Positions 4,653 through 23,968 of a stretch of 23,968 nucleotides of DNA are shown here, one piece after another; position 1 is the stretch's first letter; every line of letters begins with the position of its first letter. Origin of the DNA: a virus; IMG/VR virus record IMGVR_UViG_3300044642_000350, positions 1 through 23,968 of that record. The stretch is one strand, 5' to 3'. Below the pieces are notes generated by a model. It searched no databases. It was not told where the DNA came from and saw only the letters and a program-made list of their open reading frames with translations. Both the position numbers and the translations under genes were made by a program.

Positions 4653-4808
4653 ATGTGGATCCTCAAACAAATTGAGAAATGCTTTAGTAAATTTAGTAAC
4701 AGTTATTCAAGCAGACTAGAAGAATACATCGTCAGTCGCAATCCACAGAGCGAGGCTGACGTTGAACGTCTTACTATTGAATTTCACCGACGAATGTCCT
4801 ACTATTAG
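4653..4808 (+). CDS. small hypothetical protein (51 aa)
   Basis: Found by reading the gap between 4649 and 4829. The frame runs from ATG 4653 to TAG 4806-4808. The C-terminal half (RLEEYIVSRNPQSEADVERL) is a charged helix resembling short helical peptides that occur in many phage and proteobacterial genomes. No good Shine-Dalgarno is visible, but it starts three bases after the previous stop, so reinitiation is possible. Confidence 0.52.
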   Translation: MWILKQIEKCFSKFSNSYSSRLEEYIVSRNPQSEADVERLTIEFHRRMSYY

Positions 4809-4814
4809 TATCCA

Positions 4815-4822
4815 AATAAATA
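4815..4822 (+). promoter_or_regulatory. T4-like late promoter box (AATAAATA), leaderless configuration
   Basis: Seven of eight bases match T4 TATAAATA. Only 6 bases separate it from ATG 4829 and no ribosome-binding site is present, so the predicted transcription start coincides with the start codon. Confidence 0.55.
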
Positions 4823-4828
4823 CTAATT

Positions 4829-5410
4829 ATGACATTAGTTTATATCCACGGTGCAAGTGCTACTGGTGAAAGTTTTAATCATATTCGTGAACATTTAGGT
4901 GGTAACGACATTGTAGTTAATTACGACAGTAGGAACGGTTTTGAAAACAATCTAAAAACTATGACTGAACAATTAGCATCAGTTAATAAAATGTTTTTTA
5001 TTGGTCATAGTTTGGGTGGAATATATGCTATTCACTTAGCCAATTCATTACCCAAGCAAACACTTGGTGCAGTAACACTTAGCACTCCTTACGGTGGGGC
5101 TGAGGTTGCTGATTATGCTAAGTATTTTCTACCATTCAGCAGATTGATGAAAGATATTGGACCAAGTAGTTGGGCAATGAAACGGGCAAATCGAATTAAG
5201 ATACAGCATCCATGGACTAATGTAGTAACTGTAAAAGGACAAAGTCCTTTTATGGTTCAGCCTAATGATGGGGTAGTAACTATTGCAAGTCAAAAACACC
5301 ATGATGATATGGAATTGATTGAAATAGATTACAATCATTATGAGGTGGTTCTTAGTGAAAAAGTCATTAATATTATTAAAGACCGAATTAAAAAGATCCA
5401 AAATAATTGA
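4829..5410 (+). CDS. alpha/beta hydrolase (esterase/lipase-like)
   Basis: A compact 193-aa alpha/beta hydrolase. Residues 3-8 (LVYIHG) form the first strand and oxyanion loop. The nucleophile elbow is GHSLGG with Ser61; the acid is probably Asp147 (in PNDGVV) and the base His170 (in YNHYEVV), so the triad is complete and correctly ordered. No signal peptide is present, so it acts in the cytoplasm or leaves on lysis. The family includes lipases, esterases and acyltransferases; substrate cannot be predicted. It starts directly after a late-promoter box without a Shine-Dalgarno, which implies late expression. A role in releasing lipids or remodelling membrane at lysis is plausible but is inference. 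Confidence 0.82.
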   Translation: MTLVYIHGASATGESFNHIREHLGGNDIVVNYDSRNGFENNLKTMTEQLASVNKMFFIGHSLGGIYAIHLANSLPKQTLGAVTLSTPYGGAEVADYAKYFLPFSRLMKDIGPSSWAMKRANRIKIQHPWTNVVTVKGQSPFMVQPNDGVVTIASQKHHDDMELIEIDYNHYEVVLSEKVINIIKDRIKKIQNN

Positions 5411-12069: not shown

Positions 12070-12864
12070 ATGAAACGTATTTTTACTCTCTCTATTATCG
12101 CCGTAGCAATTTTGGCTACTGGTTGTACACGTATTGAAACCGGCGAGGTTGGTGTGCGTATTGGCTTTGACCGACAAATCAAGTCCGGTGAATTATTGCC
12201 CGGTTCATTCAATCAAACTATGATTGGTGATGTATTAACATTCCCCATCAAGGACGTCAATGTGGTGCTTGAAAACATGACACCTGTTGCTAAAGACAAT
12301 TCAACAATGAAAGACTTTGATGCTGTGGTGGTTTACAACATCAACCCACAACAAGTAAGTGAGTTGTACGCAACCAAGAACAAGAGTTTCCACGCTGATT
12401 TCAAGGGAGACACTTATGTGATGTACAACTACATTGTACAAAATGCTCGAAATGCTATTTACAAATCAGCCCGCAAGTATGAAGCATTGGACATGGCAGA
12501 CAATCGCACTGACATGGAAAACTTTATCAAAGAAGAAATTGCTCGAAATCTTGGTGAAGAAAAACTAGATGGATCAATCACAATCAGTCAAGTGATGATT
12601 CGTAATGTGTTGCCCAGTGACACAGTAGTTGAATCTGCAAACGCATTGGTTCGTAGCAAAAACGAATTGAAACAGAAAGAAGTTGAAGTTAAAACTGCCG
12701 AAGCAGAAAGTCGCAGAATGGCAGCATTGGCTAATAACTCGGGTGCTAGTATTGCATTCATGCAAGCACAAGCTATGTTGAATATCTCAGAAGGTATCAA
12801 GAACGGTCAAGTACAGACTATTGTAGTTCCTAGCAACTTCAATGCATTAATGATGCCTAAATAA
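12070..12864 (+). CDS. SPFH/band-7 family lipoprotein
   Basis: 264 aa. Residues 1-18 form a lipoprotein signal with lipobox ATGC (Cys19 acylated). Then comes an SPFH-like domain (IETGEVGVRIGFDRQIKSGE, later a strand-rich region and VMIRNVLPSD), followed by an Ala/Glu/Lys coiled coil (about residues 195-225) and a hydrophobic C-terminal tail, as in prohibitin/HflK-type proteins. These proteins assemble into membrane rings or scaffold proteases such as FtsH. Here the anchor is a lipid rather than the usual N-terminal helix, so the ring would sit on the periplasmic face. Shine-Dalgarno AAAGGAAAA is clear. A role in membrane protection or superinfection exclusion is inference. Confidence 0.82.
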   Translation: MKRIFTLSIIAVAILATGCTRIETGEVGVRIGFDRQIKSGELLPGSFNQTMIGDVLTFPIKDVNVVLENMTPVAKDNSTMKDFDAVVVYNINPQQVSELYATKNKSFHADFKGDTYVMYNYIVQNARNAIYKSARKYEALDMADNRTDMENFIKEEIARNLGEEKLDGSITISQVMIRNVLPSDTVVESANALVRSKNELKQKEVEVKTAEAESRRMAALANNSGASIAFMQAQAMLNISEGIKNGQVQTIVVPSNFNALMMPK

Positions 12865-14286: not shown

Positions 14287-15909
14287 ATGTTTTCACGTTT
14301 CTTATCAATTTTCACATTTAGTAATGCCACACTATTAGTGGCATTAGCACTTAGTACTATCGCCGCATGGTATAGTATTGTCGGTTTAACTGCTATCTTT
14401 GCCGCGGCAGTTATACCCATTATCATCATGGGTTCAGCACTTGAACTTGCAAAAATTATAACAACTGTTTGGTTGCGTAAGTATTGGCAACGTTGCACAT
14501 GGATAATGAAAGTTTATCTTGTGCCTGCTGTTGTTGCGCTTGCATTATTGACAAGCATGGGCATCTTTGGTTTCTTAAGTAAAGCACATTTAGACCAAGC
14601 TGTTCCATCTAGTGATATTGCTGCCAAAGTCTCTTTACTAGATGAAAAAATTAAAACTGAACGTGATAACATTGATGCGGCTAAAAGAGCACTAACACAA
14701 ATGGATTCACAAGTTGACCAAATGTTAGGTCGTACTGACAGTGATAGGGGTGCAGAACGTGCTGTTCAAATTCGTAGACAACAGGCTAAAGAACGTAATG
14801 CATTACAAAATGATATTGCCAAATCACAAGCCGTTATAGCTAAGTTAAATGAAGAACGAGCACCAATCGCAAGCGAACTACGTAAAGTAGAGGCAGAAGT
14901 TGGTCCTATAAAATACATTGCCGCATTCATCTATGGTGATAATCCAGACGCTAATTTATTAGAACGTGCAGTACGTTGGGTAATTATTTTACTTGTTATT
15001 GTTTTTGATCCATTAGCAATTATGTTAGTGATTGCGGCTAATCAAAGTAAAGATTGGGACAAGGAAGAATTAATTGAAGATGATAAAAATATTATGGCTA
15101 TCATTCCTCCTAAAGAAGAGGATATAGACCTTTTTACCGAAGAAGAAATACCGGCATTAGATACTGAACCTATTGCTACATGGCCCTTTCCCTCTGAAAA
15201 AACATCCAGTGTAAAAGAAGAACCTATAACTGAATTTCAAATAGCCAAACAAAATGAAACTTTTACAGACAATCAACTTACACAATTAAAAGAATTAATT
15301 GCATCATTGTCAAAACCTGAGAAACCAGATTATAGTGATATTGAAATTGTACCAGTACATACAAAGTATGAAGAACCTGTTGTTGAAGTACAACCAGAAG
15401 AAATAATTGATGTAATAGAACCAGAAGAAGTTATCAGTGATGACACCCCAAACTACGAAGGTTTTAAAGATCCTAATACCGGAAAGTGGACACAAACAGG
15501 TCCTGATTTTGTTCCAATAACATCACAACCATCATTCGTTAAATTTGACGGGGACTATGCTGAATACAAAGGTAAACATGTACACAAACGTGTTTTATAC
15601 GATCAGTTTCCTGAATTAAAATTAGAAGAAGATAAACGCCGTTCATCTAATACAAGATTTGGTACAGATTTTCCAAACACTAAGATGTTAGGTGATGTAT
15701 TTGTACGTGTTGATGTAACTCCTAATAGAGTATACAAATACAATGGTGCAAAATGGATAGAAACAAGTAAAAACATAAGTAGTACATATTTGGCTAATCC
15801 AGAATATGTTCAATTTTTAATCGGTAAACTTGCGTCAGGTGAATATGATATGGACCTATTAACCGTTGACGAACAGGATGCAGTTGAAAAGCATTTAAAA
15901 ACTGGGTAA
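14287..15909 (+). CDS. large coiled-coil integral membrane protein (540 aa)
   Basis: Three N-terminal transmembrane helices (about residues 11-30, 33-52 and 75-98) precede a long charged coiled coil (about 110-215), then a fourth hydrophobic segment (about 232-252). The rest is an acidic Glu/Pro/Asp-rich linker (about 260-400) and a C-terminal globular part with a 'GFKDPNTGKWTQTGPDF' block and a terminal 'NPEYVQFLIGKLASGEYDMD' segment. From memory, similar proteins occur in T4-like marine phages with unknown function. It is expressed from a late, leaderless-type promoter. Acting as a tether between membrane and virion assembly, or as a spanin-like or holin-linked factor, is speculation. Confidence 0.78.
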   Translation: MFSRFLSIFTFSNATLLVALALSTIAAWYSIVGLTAIFAAAVIPIIIMGSALELAKIITTVWLRKYWQRCTWIMKVYLVPAVVALALLTSMGIFGFLSKAHLDQAVPSSDIAAKVSLLDEKIKTERDNIDAAKRALTQMDSQVDQMLGRTDSDRGAERAVQIRRQQAKERNALQNDIAKSQAVIAKLNEERAPIASELRKVEAEVGPIKYIAAFIYGDNPDANLLERAVRWVIILLVIVFDPLAIMLVIAANQSKDWDKEELIEDDKNIMAIIPPKEEDIDLFTEEEIPALDTEPIATWPFPSEKTSSVKEEPITEFQIAKQNETFTDNQLTQLKELIASLSKPEKPDYSDIEIVPVHTKYEEPVVEVQPEEIIDVIEPEEVISDDTPNYEGFKDPNTGKWTQTGPDFVPITSQPSFVKFDGDYAEYKGKHVHKRVLYDQFPELKLEEDKRRSSNTRFGTDFPNTKMLGDVFVRVDVTPNRVYKYNGAKWIETSKNISSTYLANPEYVQFLIGKLASGEYDMDLLTVDEQDAVEKHLKTG

Positions 15910-15920
15910 ATTGTTACCCA
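15903..15920 (+). promoter_or_regulatory. hairpin at the end of the membrane protein gene
   Basis: TGGGTAA (15903-15909) pairs perfectly with TTACCCA (15914-15920) around loop ATTG. It includes the stop codon TAA. No T-run follows, so it is not a standard intrinsic terminator, but may help to stall or process transcripts entering the promoter at 15928. Confidence 0.5.
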
Positions 15921-15922
15921 AA

Positions 15923-15943
15923 ATCTCTTGACCAATAAGAGAT
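15923..15943 (+). promoter_or_regulatory. 7-bp inverted repeat overlapping the -35 box (operator-like)
   Basis: ATCTCTT (15923-15929) and AAGAGAT (15937-15943) are perfect inverted repeats, with a 7-base spacer, and cover the -35 box of the promoter at 15928. This position fits a repressor or activator site. Confidence 0.45.
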
Positions 15944-15956
15944 TCTCTGTTATACT
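15928..15956 (+). promoter_or_regulatory. sigma70 promoter (TTGACC-17-TATACT)
   Basis: -35 TTGACC (15928-15933) and -10 TATACT (15951-15956) with a 17-base spacer. Drives the lipoprotein at 15988 and probably the one at 16614. Confidence 0.75.
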
Positions 15957-15987
15957 ATCATCATTGTTTAACTTATTAAAGGTTTTT

Positions 15988-16608
15988 ATGAAACACACAC
16001 TCACTTTTGTCGCAGTCGTTGCTATTCTAGCAGGTTGCTCCTCAACTAAGACCGCAGTAAACCCTGATGAACCTATCAGAAATCAAAAGTTGTCCACAAC
16101 ATTTACAGAGGATAATGTAAAGATTACAACAAATTGTGCATGGTATAAGCCATTTAAATCTGAATGCGATATAGTTTCTATTGAAGCTACTGCAACTGCA
16201 TGGACTAATGGTGCAAGTATTGTACAAGTTAATGAAGGTCGTAAGGTTGCTAAAAGCCAAGCACTAGCAAACGTTAGTCATTTTATCAATACCCAAATCT
16301 CAAGTTCACGGATTACAAATGTTATAGCCAAACACGTTGAAAAGGCTAAAGATGAGATGAAAAATGGTTCAGAAGAATCACAGATGACTGATAAAGAAGC
16401 CAAAACAAATAGTACATCGGTTCGTGAAAATTCAAATGATACTGCACGTACAGTAACTAATACTATCCGTGAAAATTCTGAATCTATCTTGCGTGGATTT
16501 AGAACTGTCAAGGAAGAAAAAGTAGGACAACAAGAAGTTTCAGTTACCGTTCGTTGGGACCGCGAAAGTGAGCGAGTTGCTAATGAATTGCGTAAAAGCA
16601 TGAATTAA
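15988..16608 (+). CDS. lipoprotein (LAGC lipobox)
   Basis: 206 aa. ATG 15988 follows TTAAAGG and gives a proper lipoprotein signal (MKHTLTFVAVVAILAGC, Cys17 acylated); the in-frame ATG at 15928 would start inside the promoter. The mature part is charged, with two Cys residues (TTNCAWYKPF and KSECD) that could form a disulfide. Its C-terminal half is a long Asn/Thr/Glu/Lys-rich helix. The ending (VSVTVRWDRESERVANELRKS) resembles the last strand of LPP20/outer-membrane-lipoprotein-type folds. Function not known. It is the first of a pair of lipoproteins in an operon. Confidence 0.78.
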   Translation: MKHTLTFVAVVAILAGCSSTKTAVNPDEPIRNQKLSTTFTEDNVKITTNCAWYKPFKSECDIVSIEATATAWTNGASIVQVNEGRKVAKSQALANVSHFINTQISSSRITNVIAKHVEKAKDEMKNGSEESQMTDKEAKTNSTSVRENSNDTARTVTNTIRENSESILRGFRTVKEEKVGQQEVSVTVRWDRESERVANELRKSMN

Positions 16609-16613
16609 TAATC

Positions 16614-17594
16614 ATGCGTTTAATTTTAGCATTGGCAGTTACCCTGTTAACTGCCTGTGCTACTACGGTAGCACAAAATAAAACTATCCCAATCAGCGTG
16701 ATAGGTGAAGGAACTACTATCAACGATGCAAAAAACAATGGCTTTCAAAAAGCCATTGAGCAAGAAGTTGGTGTAGTTCTTTTATCACAAAAACAAATCA
16801 AAAATGACAAGCTAAGTAAGGACGAAATTGTATTACATAGTGCAGGTTATATTGACCATTATACAGTACTTGATACAGAAAAGGTAAACAACACTTATTA
16901 CCTAACAATGGATGTTTATGTCAAATCCAGTTCTATCGCAGAAAGAGTGTTAGGGGTATCAAATAAATCCAAATCTGTCAATGGTGAAAAAATACACGAC
17001 CAATTTGAAGTATATTCAAAGTACAGAAAAACCGGTGATGAATTGATGAAGGCAGTGTTGGAAGAATATCCGCATTCTGCATTTATTGTTAAAAATCAAA
17101 GAATTGATAGTTCAGGAGTTGTGACAGCAATAGATAAAAATAGAAATCCTGTGTTTATTGTACCCTTTGAAGTAAGTTATAATTATAACTTTCTAAAATC
17201 GTTTAATGAGGCTTTAAAAGCTACAAGCGATAAAGAAATAAAAGGTCATGTCCAACAACGTAAAATTAGGGTGATTAGTAAAAAACCCGGTAGTGTTTGG
17301 GGTAGTACTGATTCATATTTTATCAACGATATACAACGTGATGAATTGATTAAGCAACATTTTGTTGGTAAATTATATGTAAAATTAATTGCATTAGACG
17401 GAGCAGGGAAGAGATTATTTCATACATGCCAAACCTTTGCCGGGGAAGAAGATACAATTTATTTGAACAAAGAATTTACAATTAATGGTAATGACGTTTT
17501 TGAAAATGAATTGGCATTTACATTTAAGAAAAATCACCCCATAATGAAAGAAGTCAGTTCTTATGTATTGACTGTTCATAAAGGAAAATGTTAG
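16614..17594 (+). CDS. lipoprotein with FlgT-like / LPP20-like N-terminal domain
   Basis: 326 aa. Signal and lipobox LTAC (Cys15). After this, IPISVIGEGTTINDAKNNGF, then a helix (QKAIEQEVGVVLLSQKQI) and SAGYIDHYTVLDTEKVNNTYY resemble the N-terminal domain of FlgT and LPP20 lipoproteins (flagellar-assembly or envelope proteins), in which a helix packs on a short sheet. The rest contains strand-rich segments and a lysine-rich C-terminus. It begins 5 bases after the upstream lipoprotein gene, so they form an operon. Together with the cytochrome and SPFH lipoprotein it points to extensive remodelling of the host envelope by the phage. Family match is by pattern. Confidence 0.75.
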   Translation: MRLILALAVTLLTACATTVAQNKTIPISVIGEGTTINDAKNNGFQKAIEQEVGVVLLSQKQIKNDKLSKDEIVLHSAGYIDHYTVLDTEKVNNTYYLTMDVYVKSSSIAERVLGVSNKSKSVNGEKIHDQFEVYSKYRKTGDELMKAVLEEYPHSAFIVKNQRIDSSGVVTAIDKNRNPVFIVPFEVSYNYNFLKSFNEALKATSDKEIKGHVQQRKIRVISKKPGSVWGSTDSYFINDIQRDELIKQHFVGKLYVKLIALDGAGKRLFHTCQTFAGEEDTIYLNKEFTINGNDVFENELAFTFKKNHPIMKEVSSYVLTVHKGKC

Positions 17595-17644: not shown

Positions 17645-18847
17645 ATGTCCGAAGAAAATAAACCAATAAATTATTGTAGCTTTTGCAACAACCACAAAGA
17701 TGCTGTTAAAAAACTAGTAGTCGGTGGTTCTGTTGCTATATGTAGTGATTGCGTTGAATTATGCCAAGAACTCATAACTGATGGAGTTGTTGAACCTACA
17801 ACAAAAGAATCCAATCCAGATTACGATCCAGAGTCCATAAAAGAATACCTAGATCAACATGTCATTGGACAAGATGATGCTAAAAAGGTTCTCAGCGTAG
17901 CCATTGCTAATCACTATAAACGGATAAATAATCCTCCTAAAGATTTAGAAATACAAAAAGGCAATGTACTTATTGTAGGTCCGACAGGTAGTGGCAAAAC
18001 CTTACTTGCAAAGACTGCGGCTAAATATCTTAAAGTGCCCTTCGTTGTAGCTGATGCAACTAGTTTAACCGAAGCAGGTTATGTAGGTGATGATGTTGAA
18101 TCAATGATTAACATGTTGCTCAATGCGGCTAACGGTGATAAAGACTTAGCCGAGCGTGGTATCGTATTTGTTGATGAAATTGACAAAATTGCCCGAAAGA
18201 GTGAGAGTGTTAGTATAACACGTGATGTATCAGGTGAGGGAGTACAACAAGCATTACTCAAATTAGTTGAAGGTACAGTATGTCGCATAGCAGGAAGCGG
18301 TGGCAGAAAACATCCTGGTGCCGACATGCTTGAAATAAACACAAAAAACATATTATTCATTGCAGGCGGGGCTTTTGTTGGATTGAAGGAAGTAATAGGA
18401 AATAGATTAAATGGAACAAGTATCGGGTTTCAAGCGGCTATCAAAGATAATAAAAAAGAGGGTGAACTAAGCAAAGTTACCCCTGATGATTTAACAAAGT
18501 ACGGAATGATTCCAGAATTCATAGGTAGATTTACTACTACAGTTAGTATTGATGAATTAGATAAAGAACAGTTGATTCATATCTTAACCGATGTTAAAAA
18601 TAATTATATCAGCCAATACAAATATTTGCTTAAATTAGATAATATCGAACTTACATTTACCCAAGATGCATTGGAACAAATGGCAGAAAATTCATTAACT
18701 CTGAAAACAGGGGCTCGTGGATTGCATACAGAAATTGAGCGAGTATTAATGCCGCATATGTTCCTCACCAAATCATACCGTCAAAATAACATAAAATTGC
18801 TAAATATTAACAAGGAGCAGATTTTAAATCCAAAATCTTTGTTATGA
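17645..18847 (+). CDS. clpX: ClpX, ATP-dependent unfoldase
   Basis: 400 aa against about 424 in E. coli. N-terminal zinc-binding domain with Cys11, Cys14, Cys33 and Cys36. Walker A GPTGSGKT (112-119), pore-1 loop GYVG (145-148), Walker B VFVDEIDK (174-181), pore-2 RKH (221-223), ClpP-docking loop IGF (260-262) and sensor-2 region GARGLHTEIERVL near the end are all present. The enzyme should therefore unfold substrates and dock on a ClpP 14-mer, which must come from the host. No Shine-Dalgarno is evident. Its stop overlaps the bS21 start as ATGA. The intact loops imply real function, presumably directing host ClpP to chosen proteins or aiding virion assembly. Confidence 0.96.
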   Translation: MSEENKPINYCSFCNNHKDAVKKLVVGGSVAICSDCVELCQELITDGVVEPTTKESNPDYDPESIKEYLDQHVIGQDDAKKVLSVAIANHYKRINNPPKDLEIQKGNVLIVGPTGSGKTLLAKTAAKYLKVPFVVADATSLTEAGYVGDDVESMINMLLNAANGDKDLAERGIVFVDEIDKIARKSESVSITRDVSGEGVQQALLKLVEGTVCRIAGSGGRKHPGADMLEINTKNILFIAGGAFVGLKEVIGNRLNGTSIGFQAAIKDNKKEGELSKVTPDDLTKYGMIPEFIGRFTTTVSIDELDKEQLIHILTDVKNNYISQYKYLLKLDNIELTFTQDALEQMAENSLTLKTGARGLHTEIERVLMPHMFLTKSYRQNNIKLLNINKEQILNPKSLL

Positions 18848-19056
18848 GTAAGAAAATTCCAGTATTTGACAACAATGTAGAGAAAGCATTACGTAAACTT
18901 AAAAAAAAGTTAACCGAATCCGGTTTACTACAAGAGGTCAGAGAACGTCAGGAATTTGTCAAACCAACCATAAAAAAGAAGATTGCCAAAAGTCAAGCAA
19001 AAAGACGTTGGAAGAAACACTTGCGTGACCAACAATTGCCCCCTAAAATGTACTAA
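18844..19056 (+). CDS. rpsU: Ribosomal protein bS21 homologue
   Basis: 70 aa, as in E. coli bS21 (71 aa), and very basic. The conserved core is visible: VEKALRKLKKKLTESGLLQE, RERQEFVKPT, then KKKIAKSQAKRRWKKH. bS21 binds the 30S platform near the anti-Shine-Dalgarno, and phage bS21 copies are known from marine and freshwater phages, where they are thought to enter host ribosomes and bias initiation toward phage mRNA. Here it is overlapped with clpX (ATGA) and translationally coupled. Given that several late genes in this window seem leaderless, a bS21 with changed initiation preference is a tempting link; that part is inference. Confidence 0.93.
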   Translation: MSKKIPVFDNNVEKALRKLKKKLTESGLLQEVRERQEFVKPTIKKKIAKSQAKRRWKKHLRDQQLPPKMY

Positions 19057-19064
19057 CCCAATTA

Positions 19065-19093
19065 TATACAAATATTTTACGTAATCATATAAA
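19065..19093 (+). promoter_or_regulatory. possible sigma70-type promoter upstream of dnaK (TATACA-17-TATAAA)
   Basis: TATACA (19065-19070) and TATAAA (19088-19093) at 17-base spacing in the 107-base gap before dnaK. The -35 matches consensus at four of six. The region is extremely AT-rich, so this may be chance; no heat-shock (sigma32) consensus was seen. Confidence 0.35.
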
Positions 19094-19106
19094 ATAGATA
19101 TATACA

Positions 19107-19130
19107 TGTAGATGCTGTAAAGGTCTACAG
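19107..19130 (+). promoter_or_regulatory. mutually exclusive hairpins in the dnaK leader
   Basis: TGTAGA (19107-19112) can pair with TCTACA (19124-19129), or CTGTA (19115-19119) with TACAG (19126-19130). The two structures share the right arm and cannot coexist; the second is followed by TTTT. Such alternatives are a hallmark of regulated leaders, but the stems are short and the energy difference is unknown. Confidence 0.35.
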
Positions 19131-19163
19131 TTTTAAAAATCTTGCTTAACAAAGGAGAACATT

Positions 19164-21053
19164 ATGAGCAAAGTCATCGGTATCGATTTGGGTACCACAA
19201 ATTCATGCGTAGCCGTTATTGAGAACGGAATCCCCAAAGTAATTGAAAACAGTGAAGGTGCTAGAACAACACCAAGTATTGTCGCCTATACAGACGAAAT
19301 TCTTGTTGGTGCTAGTGCTAAACGTCAAGCAGTTACTAATCCAAAAAACACAATTTATGCAGCCAAGCGTTTGATCGGTCGTAAATTTACCGAAGAAGCT
19401 GTACAAAAAGATATCAACTTGATGCCTTACAAAATTGTTGCTAATGACAACGGTGATGCATGGGTTCAAGTAAATGAAGATAAACTAGCACCTCCACAAA
19501 TCAGTGCAGAAGTCTTACGCAAAATGAAAAAGACTGCGGAAGATTATCTCGGTGAAGAAGTTACACAAGCAGTTATTACTGTTCCCGCATATTTCAATGA
19601 TAGTCAAAGACAAGCAACCAAAGACGCAGGACGTATTGCCGGTCTAGAAGTATTGCGTATCATTAACGAACCTACAGCAGCCGCATTGGCGTATGGTGTA
19701 GATAAACAAGACAAGCGTGACCGTAAAGTTGCAGTGTACGACTTAGGTGGTGGTACATTTGATGTATCTATCATTGAATTGGCAGATGTTGATGGTGACA
19801 AACAAATTGAAGTATTGTCCACAAACGGAGACACATTCTTAGGTGGTGAAGACTTTGACCAACGAATCATGGATTTCTTGGTTGACGAATTCAAAAAGGA
19901 TCAAGGCGTTGATTTGACTAAAGATGTGTTAGCATTGCAACGACTTAAAGAAGCCGCAGAAAAGGCTAAGATTGAGTTGAGTAGTTCAGTACAAACAGAT
20001 GTTAACTTACCGTACATCACCGCAGATGCAAATGGCCCTAAACATTTGAACGTTAAGTTGACACGTAGCAAACTAGAACAACTAGTTGAAGAACTTATCA
20101 AACGTAGTATCGAGCCTTGCAAGACAGCAATGAAAGATGCCGGTGTAAGTGCTAGTGACATTGACGAAATTATCTTAGTTGGCGGCATGACACGTATGCC
20201 TAAGGTACAAGAAGAAGTTGAAAAACTATTCGGCAAAGCACCACGCAAAGATGTTAACCCTGATGAAGCAGTAGCAGTTGGTGCCGCAGTTCAAGGCGCA
20301 GTACTAAGTGGTGAGCGCAAAGACGTATTGTTGCTTGACGTTACTCCATTGAGTTTGGGTATTGAAACAATGGGCGGTGTAATGAGCAAATTGATTGCTA
20401 AGAACACAACAATTCCAACTAAACAAAGTCAAACATTCAGTACAGCCGAAGATAATCAACAAGCAGTTACAATCAAAGTGTTCCAAGGTGAGCGTGAGAT
20501 TGCAAAATACAATAAAGGTCTAGGTGAATTTAACTTAGATGGTATTGCACCAGCACCCCGCGGAGTACCTCAGATTGAAGTTACTTTTGATATTGACGCA
20601 AATGGTATCATGCATATCAGTGCTAAAGACAAAGGTACGGGCAAAGAAAACAAAATCACTATTAAGAGTAATAGTGGTTTGAGCGAAAGTGAAATTCAGC
20701 AAATGGTTAAAGATGCTGAGGACAATGCAGAAACAGACAAGAAAGCACGTGAATTGATTGAAGCACGTAATGGAGCAGAATCAACATTGAATGGCTTCCG
20801 TAATGACTTTGAAAAGTACAAAGACCAAGTTACAGAAGAAGAACGTACTAAAGCAGAAGAAGCATTAAAAGCAGTTGAATATGCGATTCTAGGTGATGAC
20901 GCAACAGTTATCCAAGAATCTATTCCTAAACTATATGAAGCAATTGGTCCTATCACTAAGGTTAAACACGATGCTGAAGAAGCAGAGAAGAAACAATCAC
21001 AAGAAGCAGATGTGGTTGATGCAGAAGTTAAAGAGTCCGCAGAGACTGTTTAA
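19164..21053 (+). CDS. dnaK: DnaK (Hsp70 chaperone)
   Basis: 629 aa, full length (E. coli 638). The N-terminal ATPase domain has [40 protein letters not shown] and [12 protein letters not shown]; the linker [18 protein letters not shown] precedes a substrate-binding domain and helical lid. The acidic tail ends with DVVDAEVKE, as in proteobacterial DnaK. Everything needed for folding is present. J-protein and GrpE are not in the window, so host cofactors must be used. Strong Shine-Dalgarno (AAAGGAGAA). DnaK in a phage is uncommon; likely uses are folding of capsid or replication proteins and blocking the host heat-shock response. Close similarity to host DnaK implies a relatively recent transfer. 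Confidence 0.97.
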
Positions 21054-21061
21054 CTAAATTA

Positions 21062-21089
21062 GTCGGGTGCCATATAGGATGGACCCGAC
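21062..21089 (+). promoter_or_regulatory. hairpin between dnaK and hsp20
   Basis: GTCGGGT (21062-21068) pairs with ACCCGAC (21083-21089); inside, CCA (21070-21072) pairs with TGG (21080-21082) around loop TATAGGA with one bulged G. There is no T-run. It resembles the hairpin in the leader at 4323 and may punctuate the dnaK and hsp20 transcripts or protect their ends. Confidence 0.6.
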
Positions 21090-21122
21090 ATGTCATAACT
21101 TGCTTAATAAAGGAGAAACAAA

Positions 21123-21566
21123 ATGACAAGAGAATTAACGTTACGTTCAATAGATATTCCATCTATCCATAGATTCGGAATAGGATTTGATTCAATGCTT
21201 GATGAACTACTGAGAACAACAAGTCAACCACAAGGTAACTATCCACCGCACAATGTAATTAAGACAGGAGATGAAACTGTATTAATTGAGGTTGCAATTG
21301 CAGGATTTGATGAAGGTGAAATTTCTATCACAGTAGAAAACAATACATTATTGATTTCCGGTCAACAAAATAAAAATGATCCAATCAATTATGAATATCT
21401 ACATCGTGGATTGAGTAGCAGAAACTTTATCCAAAAGTTCAAATTGGCTGAACATGTTGAAGTTATTGACGCATCTATTAAAAACGGAGTTCTTTCTGTC
21501 TTACTAGAGCGTAAAATGCCAGAAGATAAGAAACCCAAGAACATTGCAATAAACTACAATAAATAA
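21123..21566 (+). CDS. small heat-shock protein (Hsp20/IbpA-like)
   Basis: 147 aa with an alpha-crystallin domain (about residues 42-135): NVIKTGDETVLIEVAIAGFD, the YEYLHRGLSSRNFIQKFKLAEHVEV segment and the signature GVLSVLLER. A C-terminal NIAI matches the I-x-I anchor that links dimers into oligomers. The IbpA-like 'RNFxxxFxLAEHV' block is intact. The protein holds denatured proteins for DnaK to refold. Its leader (CTTGCTTAATAAAGGAGAA) matches that of dnaK almost base for base. T4-like cyanophages commonly carry an hsp20, which supports the phage assignment. Confidence 0.94.
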   Translation: MTRELTLRSIDIPSIHRFGIGFDSMLDELLRTTSQPQGNYPPHNVIKTGDETVLIEVAIAGFDEGEISITVENNTLLISGQQNKNDPINYEYLHRGLSSRNFIQKFKLAEHVEVIDASIKNGVLSVLLERKMPEDKKPKNIAINYNK

Positions 21567-21579
21567 TATAATAGCATAT

Positions 21580-21587
21580 CGTAAATA
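21580..21587 (+). promoter_or_regulatory. possible late promoter box (CGTAAATA) upstream of clpS
   Basis: TAAATA core directly after the hsp20 gene, with the hairpin at 21588-21613 beginning right behind it. Moderate match to the T4 late box. Confidence 0.35.
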
Positions 21588-21613
21588 AAAGTGTGCGGGA
21601 AACTGCACACTTT
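21588..21613 (+). promoter_or_regulatory. perfect 9-bp hairpin between hsp20 and clpS
   Basis: AAAGTGTGC (21588-21596) pairs with GCACACTTT (21605-21613), loop GGGAAACT. Only a TTTC follows, so it would be a weak terminator. If the box at 21580 is a promoter, the hairpin lies at the 5' end of the clpS mRNA and could protect it. Confidence 0.55.
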
Positions 21614-21628
21614 CAATGAAAGCACAAC

Positions 21629-21937
21629 ATGGCACAAACTGAAACAAGAATTAGAATTAGACCCAATTTGAAAGTACCTGAACCCCCAATGTTCAAGGTA
21701 ATTTATATGAACGATAATCACACTTCAATAGAGTTTGTCGTTAAAAGTTTGATTGACCATTTTAATTATACAGAGGATACTGCATCATCTATTACTACAG
21801 GAATTCATGAATCCGGTAGTGCAGTTGTTGCTGTGTTGCCCTTTGAAATTGCAGAACAAAAGGGAATTGAAGTTACACTTGATGCCAGAAACCAAGGGTA
21901 TCCACTTCAAGTTAAAATAGAAGCCGACGCAACTTAA
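21629..21937 (+). CDS. clpS: ClpS adaptor (N-degron recognin)
   Basis: 102 aa. The ClpS core begins PPMFKVIYMNDNHTSIEFV, with helices and the 'H-ESGSAVVAV' strand after it. Family residues that bind the N-degron: Asn28, Asp29, and His60 are kept, as is Thr32; the second aspartate is Asn30 and the Met gatekeeper is Ile34. Host ClpS normally hands substrates with N-terminal Phe, Leu, Trp or Tyr to ClpAP and blocks other ClpA uses. The phage carries ClpX but not ClpA, so ClpS should act on host ClpAP. The changed pocket suggests altered N-end preference. No strong Shine-Dalgarno: GAAAG precedes ATG 21629. The stop overlaps the converging minus-strand gene by 4 bases. Confidence 0.9.
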   Translation: MAQTETRIRIRPNLKVPEPPMFKVIYMNDNHTSIEFVVKSLIDHFNYTEDTASSITTGIHESGSAVVAVLPFEIAEQKGIEVTLDARNQGYPLQVKIEADAT

Positions 21938-22629
21938 AGATTTATTTCAATGCGTTTTGCAAAGTATGGTTCAACATCATACTTTGCGTTATTCACATAG
22001 TTGATGTTATTAATTTTAGTGTCAACAAACTTATCATAAGTTCCATATATCCACTTAGTTACTTTGTGTTCTGTGTCTTTGTATAGAACATATCCGGGGA
22101 AGATATCCTCATCATTCACATCGTTCTCACCGAAGTACAATTCTCTGAGTGGAACGCAACTACTGATAATGACTACCTTTTTAACGTCAACATGTAGTTG
22201 TAATTTTTCAAGTGTTTTCTCAAGGTATGCAATATCGTCATATCTAAAACATTTTAAATGAAAATCATCTAGGATGCTGTTTTCTATCTTTTTATTGCTC
22301 CAACCGTTTAAACCTAATAATGCGATTCCGTCAACTACAACTACGTTATTGTGTAAGTAAATGACGTTTCTAAAACTACTACACAGTTTAGCTATTTCAT
22401 TGGATCTAGTATCTCTATCAACGATACCTTGATTTTCTAATGTTCCGTCAATAAAAAACACCCCGTGATATAAACCACTGAGGTGTTTCAAAGTTTTATG
22501 TAAAACAGTTATATCGGTTGTGATGTTTCCAGCAACTATACAGAATAAACTAGTAGGTTTACCCTCCCAATTGAATTCATCGTTTGGGGTTAAATTTAAG
22601 TCACTGATAACATCAAAACCATATATCAT
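21934..22629 (-). CDS. metallophosphoesterase-like pseudoenzyme
   Basis: 231 aa with the layout of calcineurin-like phosphoesterases: ISDLNL (9-12 region), VAGNI (about 32-36), FFIDGTLE (58-65), VVVVDGIALLGLNGW (96-110), IISSCVP (154-160) and WIYGTYDKF then NYVNN near the end. In active family members these would be DLH, GD, GNH, SH and GHTH. Here Asp10 stays, but His12 is Asn, Asp35-type is Asn35, Asn-His is Thr63-Leu64, the next His is Ser157 and GHTH is GTY. Almost all metal ligands are gone. It likely has a binding or regulatory role, not catalysis. It starts in an ATGA overlap with the EF-hand gene and is co-transcribed with it from the minus strand. Confidence 0.75.
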   Translation of the reverse strand: MIYGFDVISDLNLTPNDEFNWEGKPTSLFCIVAGNITTDITVLHKTLKHLSGLYHGVFFIDGTLENQGIVDRDTRSNEIAKLCSSFRNVIYLHNNVVVVDGIALLGLNGWSNKKIENSILDDFHLKCFRYDDIAYLEKTLEKLQLHVDVKKVVIISSCVPLRELYFGENDVNDEDIFPGYVLYKDTEHKVTKWIYGTYDKFVDTKINNINYVNNAKYDVEPYFAKRIEINL

Positions 22630-22928
22630 GACGCTTTTGGTTTAGCTTTAGTGACTTTAGCTTTTACAGCCTTAGCCCCATCAACTGCATCTTTCAAATT
22701 AACCTTGCCATCTTGATTAACATCCAGTGCTTTTTTGGCACGGGCAGTAGTCTTTTTAGCAACTTCTTTGACTGCGGTTACTTCGGCCTTAACTTCAGCA
22801 ATAACCTCTTTAGCAACTTCCTCAACCTTAGCAACTTCTTGTTGCACAGCTGGGTTTTTGCTTCCGTATTGATTGTATAACACATAACCAATCACTATAA
22901 TAATAGCAATAATGATAATAACTTCCAT
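22626..22928 (-). CDS. membrane-anchored Ala/Lys-rich protein with an EF-hand/dockerin-type loop
   Basis: 100 aa. Residues 2-18 are a transmembrane helix. Then an Ala/Lys/Glu/Val helix of about 45 residues, a calcium-binding loop at 69-80 (Asp69, Asn71, Asp73, Asn77, Asp80: DVNQDGKVNLKD), and an Ala/Lys tail. The loop is of EF-hand or dockerin type. Good Shine-Dalgarno on the minus strand (GAAGGAG, 9 bases before the ATG). The protein would present a Ca-binding tip at the membrane or in the cell. Its partner gene is the phosphoesterase-like pseudoenzyme. Confidence 0.75.
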   Translation of the reverse strand: MEVIIIIAIIIVIGYVLYNQYGSKNPAVQQEVAKVEEVAKEVIAEVKAEVTAVKEVAKKTTARAKKALDVNQDGKVNLKDAVDGAKAVKAKVTKAKPKAS

Positions 22929-22948: not shown

Positions 22949-22956
22949 TATTTATG
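22949..22956 (-). promoter_or_regulatory. T4-like late promoter box, minus strand (CATAAATA)
   Basis: The minus strand reads CATAAATA, 20 bases before the ATG of the EF-hand gene, leaving room for the Shine-Dalgarno. It faces away from the box at 22984, giving a divergent late-promoter pair in a 68-base gap. Confidence 0.55.
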
Positions 22957-22983: not shown

Positions 22984-22991
22984 CATAAATA
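22984..22991 (+). promoter_or_regulatory. T4-like late promoter box (CATAAATA), leaderless configuration
   Basis: Seven of eight bases match T4 TATAAATA, and only 5 bases separate it from ATG 22997. No Shine-Dalgarno is present. Confidence 0.6.
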
Positions 22992-22996
22992 CATAT

Positions 22997-23488
22997 ATGA
23001 ACCTATCTAATTATTCACTCATAGATATGATGGATCTTCCCTTGCCCCCGATCCATGTTCAGAAAAAATTAGCATATAGGCCAACTGCAAAAGACGTAAA
23101 ACATGTTTATAAACAACTAAACGAGTACGTATTCGAAAATCAATTAGTAATACCGTCAATACACCTAGTACCTAGATGTAGAAAATACTGGGGTATGTGT
23201 ATGGGTGAAATAGAAATTTATAAGACCGGAAGCTATTGTGAGATTAAACTTATGGATAAATGGTTTTGCCCTCAATGGTTTGTGACCACATTAGCGCATG
23301 AAATGGTTCACCAATATCAATGGGACATATTAGGCCCCGAACGTGAAAAGAACGGAAAAGATTGGTTAATGAGTCACGGACCATCTTTCTTTCGATTTCG
23401 TGAAAATTTAGAACAGTATGGAATAAGTCTCAAAACTGCACATAGTCAAAGACGCTGGTTTAAACATCAAAATCTGTTCAGGGCATAA
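22997..23488 (+). CDS. SprT-like zinc metallopeptidase
   Basis: 163 aa. The active site is HEMVH (101-105) with Glu102 as catalytic base; the third zinc ligand is probably His127 (MSHGPSFF). The N-terminal half (VYKQLNEYVFENQLVIPSIH, CRKYWGMCMG) is a SprT-type fold. Only scattered cysteines are seen and the usual C-terminal zinc ribbon is missing. SprT-like proteases in cells (SPRTN) cut DNA-protein crosslinks. In a phage one could clear proteins from DNA or process phage proteins. Preceded by a late promoter box and no Shine-Dalgarno, so probably late and leaderless. Confidence 0.88.
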   Translation: MNLSNYSLIDMMDLPLPPIHVQKKLAYRPTAKDVKHVYKQLNEYVFENQLVIPSIHLVPRCRKYWGMCMGEIEIYKTGSYCEIKLMDKWFCPQWFVTTLAHEMVHQYQWDILGPEREKNGKDWLMSHGPSFFRFRENLEQYGISLKTAHSQRRWFKHQNLFRA

Positions 23489-23497: not shown

Positions 23498-23968
23498 ATG
23501 CGTGATTTAATAGACTTAATAAAACTACTCGAAGGTGACGGTGCTACTGAAGGAACAGACGGCGTAAAGGCTAAAGGTTTGTATCCCGATGAATTAAAAA
23601 AGCGTGACAACTTTAACATCTTTATAGGTAAAATAAATAAAGGCCTTCCTTTTATATACCACCCAACAGGTGAAGAGGTTTATATCAAACGTAGCGAAGC
23701 AAATAAAATAAAGCAACTGTTTGATACTGGACAGTTGATTGGTAAAAAAATTACCATTATGACTAATGATGGCAATCAAATTAACTTAGGTGAATTAAGA
23801 AAGACTGAGGAGTTTGGCGGAAGCTCTAAGGAAAACTTAAAATTAAAACCATCAACAATAGGCATAACTGATAGAGACATTGCTGCCACTGACTTGTATA
23901 ATGAGATAAAAAATAACAGTGTATTAAACAGCACTGACTATGGAAAAATTGTAATTCAATTAGCAGAA
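23498..23968 (+). CDS. hypothetical phage protein, 3'-truncated by window
   Basis: 157 codons are open to the right edge. It starts MRDLIDLIKLLEG, a helical opening seen in various phage proteins, then a beta-rich segment (NIFIGKINKGLPFIYHPTGE) and a charged 'LGELRKTEEFGGSS' part. A similar KT-x-x-FGG turn occurs in several uncharacterised phage proteins. It follows a late promoter with no Shine-Dalgarno. Late expression points to a virion or assembly role, which cannot be confirmed here. Confidence 0.68.
   Translation, partial: MRDLIDLIKLLEGDGATEGTDGVKAKGLYPDELKKRDNFNIFIGKINKGLPFIYHPTGEEVYIKRSEANKIKQLFDTGQLIGKKITIMTNDGNQINLGELRKTEEFGGSSKENLKLKPSTIGITDRDIAATDLYNEIKNNSVLNSTDYGKIVIQLAE

Follow-up and report, generated by a model that had tools for sequence, protein, structure and literature searches.

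A reversed two-gene module was identified in a 24-kb virus record (hereafter the window, meaning the whole stretch of 23,968 nt analysed), in which a pseudo-metallophosphoesterase (pMPE) is preceded by a small companion peptide, and the pair is tentatively regarded, with a probability of about 0.45, as a membrane-tethered non-catalytic scaffold kept by huge T4-like phages. Since the active site is lost and the neighbouring gene encodes a predicted membrane-anchoring peptide, pMPE is probably a scaffold and not an enzyme. The pMPE gene (231 aa; 21934-22629, minus strand) was recognized from its ORF, its fold model, its hhalign match to the metallophosphoesterase (MPE) of phage Phosso and its lost ligands, and the companion anchor peptide (100 aa; 22626-22928, minus strand) from its ORF and from an equivalent located 5′ of pMPE in nearly all relatives. 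Both ORFs were thus found where the original prediction had placed them, and they form the only minus-strand block in the window, as it had also claimed, all remaining recognisable genes lying on the plus strand. The 4-nt overlap between the two ORFs was a feature of the window only, most relatives presenting gaps of 6-56 nt between companion and pMPE.

Sequence searches with pMPE returned little. The single protein had no match in Pfam, PHROG or PDB sequences, 14 aligned members had none in Pfam or PDB sequence searches, and PF00149 in particular had no match in the window at E ≤ 10 and none among the 14 aligned members. The window pMPE had no tblastn match among INPHARED phages, and a divergent copy (L042) gave only marginal matches, which corresponded to the intact MPEs of Agrobacterium phage Atu_ph07 and Sinorhizobium phage Phosso (PV764938, 160674-161573) and led to a profile comparison. 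The pMPE family profile aligned with the Phosso MPE at an hhalign E of 5e-13 over 198 columns and with that of Atu_ph07 at 4e-10 over about 197 columns, these being its best sequence-profile matches. The two phage enzymes have the same fold as pMPE region by region and share with it the non-catalytic residues D6, S9, W21, G34, Y54, G62, E65, W110, D132, P160 and N214, whereas they differ from it in having all eight catalytic positions, an insertion after the first motif, and another gene neighbourhood.

The phosphoesterase scaffold first recognized from the sequence was corroborated by structure prediction. A model obtained from 26 family sequences alone reached a pLDDT of 89 and a pTM of 0.88, superseding an earlier one from 14 sequences (pLDDT 70). 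The predicted fold was calcineurin-like, which had been open to contradiction at this point, and the closest solved structure was PptH of Mycobacterium tuberculosis (6unc; Foldseek 4e-8, Z 21.3, 219 residues, 3.2 Å), which differs from pMPE in being a named hydrolase and has 14% identity to it. The model had 32 PDB matches at E ≤ 0.001, the best of them calcineurin-like, with MPPED2, Mre11, GAP50 and Vps29 among the lower-ranked ones, and its best matches among viral structures were annotated metallophosphatases. Judging from the profile alignments and the modelled fold, pMPE belongs by descent to the calcineurin-like metallophosphoesterase superfamily.

The ligand positions were assigned in pMPE from the alignment, and the substitutions originally listed proved exact: D10 is kept, with H12N, D35N, GNHE changed to G-T63-L64-E, TH to S-S157, and GHTH to G-T197-Y-D199. 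The eight canonical metal/catalytic positions accordingly read D10, N12, N35, T63, L64, S157, T197 and D199 in the window pMPE, where the active references Phosso and Atu_ph07 present DHDNHHHH, and D10 is the sole kept residue. Among 70 pMPEs, one of the eight ligands was kept in 42, two in 25 and three in 3. D10 was invariant (70/70), N35 replaced the bridging Asp in 69 of the 70, and N12 and N157 were common, while positions 63 and 199 were among the more variable columns. Residues fixed in pMPE and absent in both active references, among them N35, Q144, H146, D185, Y222 and R226, are possible contact sites. Retention of the catalytic set by relatives, which would have marked the window copy as a decayed gene, was also examined, and the complete D-x-H, GD, GNH, H and GHxH set was found in 0/70. 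pMPE is therefore presumed to work without catalysis.

The relatives of pMPE were collected in three viral-contig scans, which yielded 13, 32 and then 235 sequences, 70 of the latter being distinct, with pairwise identities of 34-100%. No cellular relative was found in a peptide-pattern scan of 84,980 cellular genomes. The gene was intact in the first 32 relatives except for the frameshifted L044, in which the pMPE frame was split into two ORFs at 4716-5407 (a frameshift or an assembly error). The three pMPE pairs with estimable dS gave dN/dS values of 0.062, 0.039 and 0.052, on which the family is under strong purifying selection. Because the ligand loss is common to 70 relatives, dN/dS is 0.04-0.06 and the gene is intact, pMPE is, as far as its sequences tell, a maintained pseudoenzyme family and not a decayed pseudogene. 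Its carriers are very large freshwater phages: some relatives were located on contigs of 349-367 kb, and the 367-kb record harbored a T4-type gp23 capsid gene, gp23 being the one T4 protein sought. At the sensitivity used, the family is absent from Pfam, PHROGs and INPHARED phage genomes, and no paper on phage phosphoesterase pseudoenzymes was found in a literature search covering open-licence papers. pMPE thus seems to represent a phage pseudoenzyme family not described before, widespread and with a fixed genomic setting.

In this setting, the plus strand of the window encodes, in order, a ClpX-like unfoldase (17645-18847), ribosomal protein bS21 (18844-19056; Pfam Ribosomal_S21, 5.8e-16), a DnaK-like chaperone of 629 aa (19164-21053; recognized from its sequence and from the unnamed family phrog_22485, 3e-278), Hsp20 (21123-21566) and the ClpS adaptor (21629-21937; Pfam ClpS, 5.5e-22), which together form a proteostasis cluster at 17645-21937. 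The reversed pair follows, the 3′ end of the convergent ClpS gene overlapping pMPE, and then a divergent SprT-like metalloprotease (22997-23488, plus strand; Pfam SprT-like, 27.5 bits, and synteny). ClpS lay on the strand opposite to pMPE in 70/70 relatives, as did SprT in all 59 in which it was found, and the order ClpP, SprT, the anchor-pMPE pair, ClpS, Hsp20, (DnaK), bS21 and ClpX was held in the first relative set as far as the contigs reach. ClpP lies beyond SprT in the relatives, in two copies in some of them, and DnaK is absent in several. An additional ORF of 123 aa was observed between the anchor peptide and pMPE in L021 (5598-5969). A conserved protein of 500-530 aa was located between SprT and ClpP, partially included in the window (23498-23968), and its copy in L013 (2927-4471) had no Pfam or PHROG match.

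The pair was also proposed to be under its own late promoter. An element of the T4-late type, CATAAATA, was found upstream of the pair (22949-22956, minus strand), corresponding to the TATAAATA-like T4-type late element sought near the gene start. Matches of this type are expected 2.7 times by chance in the window, so that the single match is not significant and the claim rests on conservation. In a first set of loci, 25/25 had the TAAATA core 13-50 nt ahead of the anchor gene, against 2.5 expected by shuffling and 0.4 at random positions (about 2%), and it was found upstream of the anchor gene in 64/64 loci of a larger set. The element resembles the T4 late promoter. One qualification is that an element of this type is not exclusive to the pair, SprT being preceded by a divergent CATAAATA of its own (22984-22991, plus strand). 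A sigma-70 promoter scan returned fewer sites than shuffles. Moreover, a stem-loop that is terminator-like on the pMPE strand was located in the Hsp20-ClpS gap (21589-21613, within a stretch noted at 21582-21613). Its stem sequence changes among relatives while the structure is kept in most of those examined; TTTTATTTA often comes after it on the pMPE strand, and a TAAATA immediately precedes it on the ClpS strand. It was missing in several relatives and had no T-run in others. This structure could serve the reversed pair as a terminator, or else be a hairpin at the 5′ end of a late ClpS mRNA.

The pairing of pMPE with a predicted membrane peptide, also part of the original prediction, was near-constant across relatives. 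The companion was placed directly 5′ of pMPE in almost every one of them, 66 of the 70 being classed automatically and the peptides of L021 and L044 being recognized on inspection; it was absent in L042. In the window, a hydrophobic membrane segment is predicted at about residues 3-19 (VIIIIAIIIVIGYVLYN; 22872-22922, minus strand), and the mean Eisenberg hydrophobicity of residues 1-18 was 0.94. Two types of N-terminus, a hydrophobic span (MEIIIGIVV...) and a short amphipathic stretch (MLNFLKKLFG), alternate among close relatives, the amphipathic type showing moments of 0.41-0.68, above most shuffles and individually mostly not significant. Lys, Ala and Pro abound in the tail, whose putative cytoplasmic location was judged only from charge. 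What appears to be conserved in the companion is membrane attachment, by interchangeable transmembrane or amphipathic segments, together with a basic low-complexity tail, and the pair is accordingly likely to reside at the membrane. PHROG matches suggesting a spanin (E 0.004 and worse) were rejected, as they rest on the hydrophobic N-terminus and none of the relatives' companions tested showed them again.

A complete dockerin/EF-hand-type Ca loop, DVNQDGKVNLKD, was indeed present at residues 69-80 of the window companion (22689-22724, minus strand; Dockerin_1), where Pfam Dockerin_1 scored 21.5 bits, below the cut-off of 22.9. The companions of L039 (which shares its contig with L013), L044 and L045 were above the cut-off, L039 carrying two loops, and the motif was confined to the companion gene in the 14 records scanned. 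These observations agree with the earlier suggestion of a Ca-responsive or Ca-sequestering system. However, the loop is facultative: by pattern it was found in about 9/66 companions, and it is absent in near relatives of the window that retain all the other features. Consequently, a Ca reading cannot explain the conserved pair, and such a system is improbable.

Other explanations of the family concern its relationship with catalysis. A PF00149 match was found elsewhere in 12 of the 13 records tested, the seven aligned proteins (L046-L049 and L051-L053) being all intact, and in several records this resident gene lay a few kb from pMPE, so that catalysis is covered separately in the same phages. 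The resident enzyme shares with pMPE its superfamily and genome, and distant homology is detectable (hhalign E 4e-5, weaker than for the phage enzymes above); unlike pMPE, it has a full catalytic set and a separate locus, and very long branches set the two apart in a tree. It is conceivable, if rather unlikely, that pMPE acts as a regulatory pseudo-subunit of this enzyme, in a heterodimer that would localise or tune it; the homology and the proximity agree with such a role, but the Phosso/Atu_ph07 type is nearer to pMPE than the resident enzyme is, and the genes occupy separate positions. Retention of enzymatic activity by pMPE itself, through a rearranged or different active site, is about as improbable as the Ca system: D10, E65, H146 and D132 are conserved, but D132 and E65 also occur in active enzymes as non-ligand residues, and a second metal-ligand cluster is not apparent in the sequence. 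We also doubt that a metal-free pocket allows pMPE to capture a nucleotide or phosphorylated ligand, which would make it a sponge or sensor directed, for example, against host signalling nucleotides. The polar and non-random character of the pocket, with D10 invariant, N35 in 69/70, and N12 and N157 common, fits this idea, but positions 63, 64, 197 and 199 vary, some being among the most variable columns, and a late-type promoter and a membrane companion suit counter-signalling less.

Two further explanations were considered. Decay into a pseudogene, to which the loss of nearly all ligands and the frameshifted L044 might point, is scarcely tenable, as the ORF is intact in other relatives, the same loss occurs throughout, dN/dS is low, and synteny and promoter are fixed. 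The reversed late transcript might chiefly serve as an antisense RNA shutting down ClpS late in infection, given that its 3′ end is convergent with ClpS, abutting or overlapping it in the window and relatives, and that, in most of the relatives examined, the terminator-like stem-loop lies past the start of ClpS. This is very unlikely, since the protein sequence of pMPE is under strong purifying selection, and several relatives do without the stem-loop while others have it without a T-run.

A membrane-tethered scaffold is therefore the preferred reading. In this model, the pair would be made late in infection from its own late-type promoter, and the N-terminus of the companion, transmembrane or amphipathic, would place it in or on the cytoplasmic membrane. 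Through the flexible basic tail of the companion, or by forming a complex with it, pMPE would be kept there as a rigid domain and would bind a partner protein, in the manner of Vps29 in retromer or of GAP50 in the Plasmodium inner membrane complex. We infer the physical contact between pMPE and its companion, as well as the scaffold role, from the pairing, bearing in mind that an operon is no proof of binding and that L042 has no companion. The likeliest clients would be the phage Clp/chaperone/SprT machinery around the gene, or virion-assembly factors handled by it, a guess from gene neighbourhood. The partly conserved polar pocket (D10, N35, often N12/N157) could point to ligand binding as opposed to a bare scaffold. 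In a more specific and rather doubtful version, the dead phosphoesterase on its exchangeable anchor would form a late membrane platform positioning a Clp/chaperone/SprT quality-control machine, like a retromer-type Vps29. The family suggests that the membrane may be where huge phages arrange protein quality control during late infection. The two-gene module named here is small and testable.

Calcineurin-like-fold pseudoenzymes are known in eukaryotes. Vps29 of retromer is an inactive phosphatase fold that serves as a protein scaffold (PMC7539009), although it differs from pMPE in being eukaryotic, smaller and without a membrane-peptide companion, and its fold match was weak. GAP50 of Plasmodium, a phosphatase fold annotated as involved in membrane anchoring (PMC4256932), matched the pMPE fold with an E of 1.2e-4; it is likewise eukaryotic, and acid phosphatase activity has also been reported for it. 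Clp protease, chaperones and bS21 have been described in huge phages from freshwater lakes (PMC9723584), in a text that makes no mention of a phosphoesterase; bS21 adjoins capsid genes in those phages, whereas in the window it belongs to the Clp/chaperone cluster.

Further membrane-associated genes were observed upstream of this cluster in the window. A 540-aa membrane protein and two signal-peptide/lipoprotein-like ORFs (226 and 326 aa) occupy 14287-17594; they had no confident family match, and their position adjoining ClpX is conserved in many relatives. An SPFH/Band 7 membrane lipoprotein (Pfam Band_7, 1.8e-17; phrog_200) is encoded at 12070-12864.
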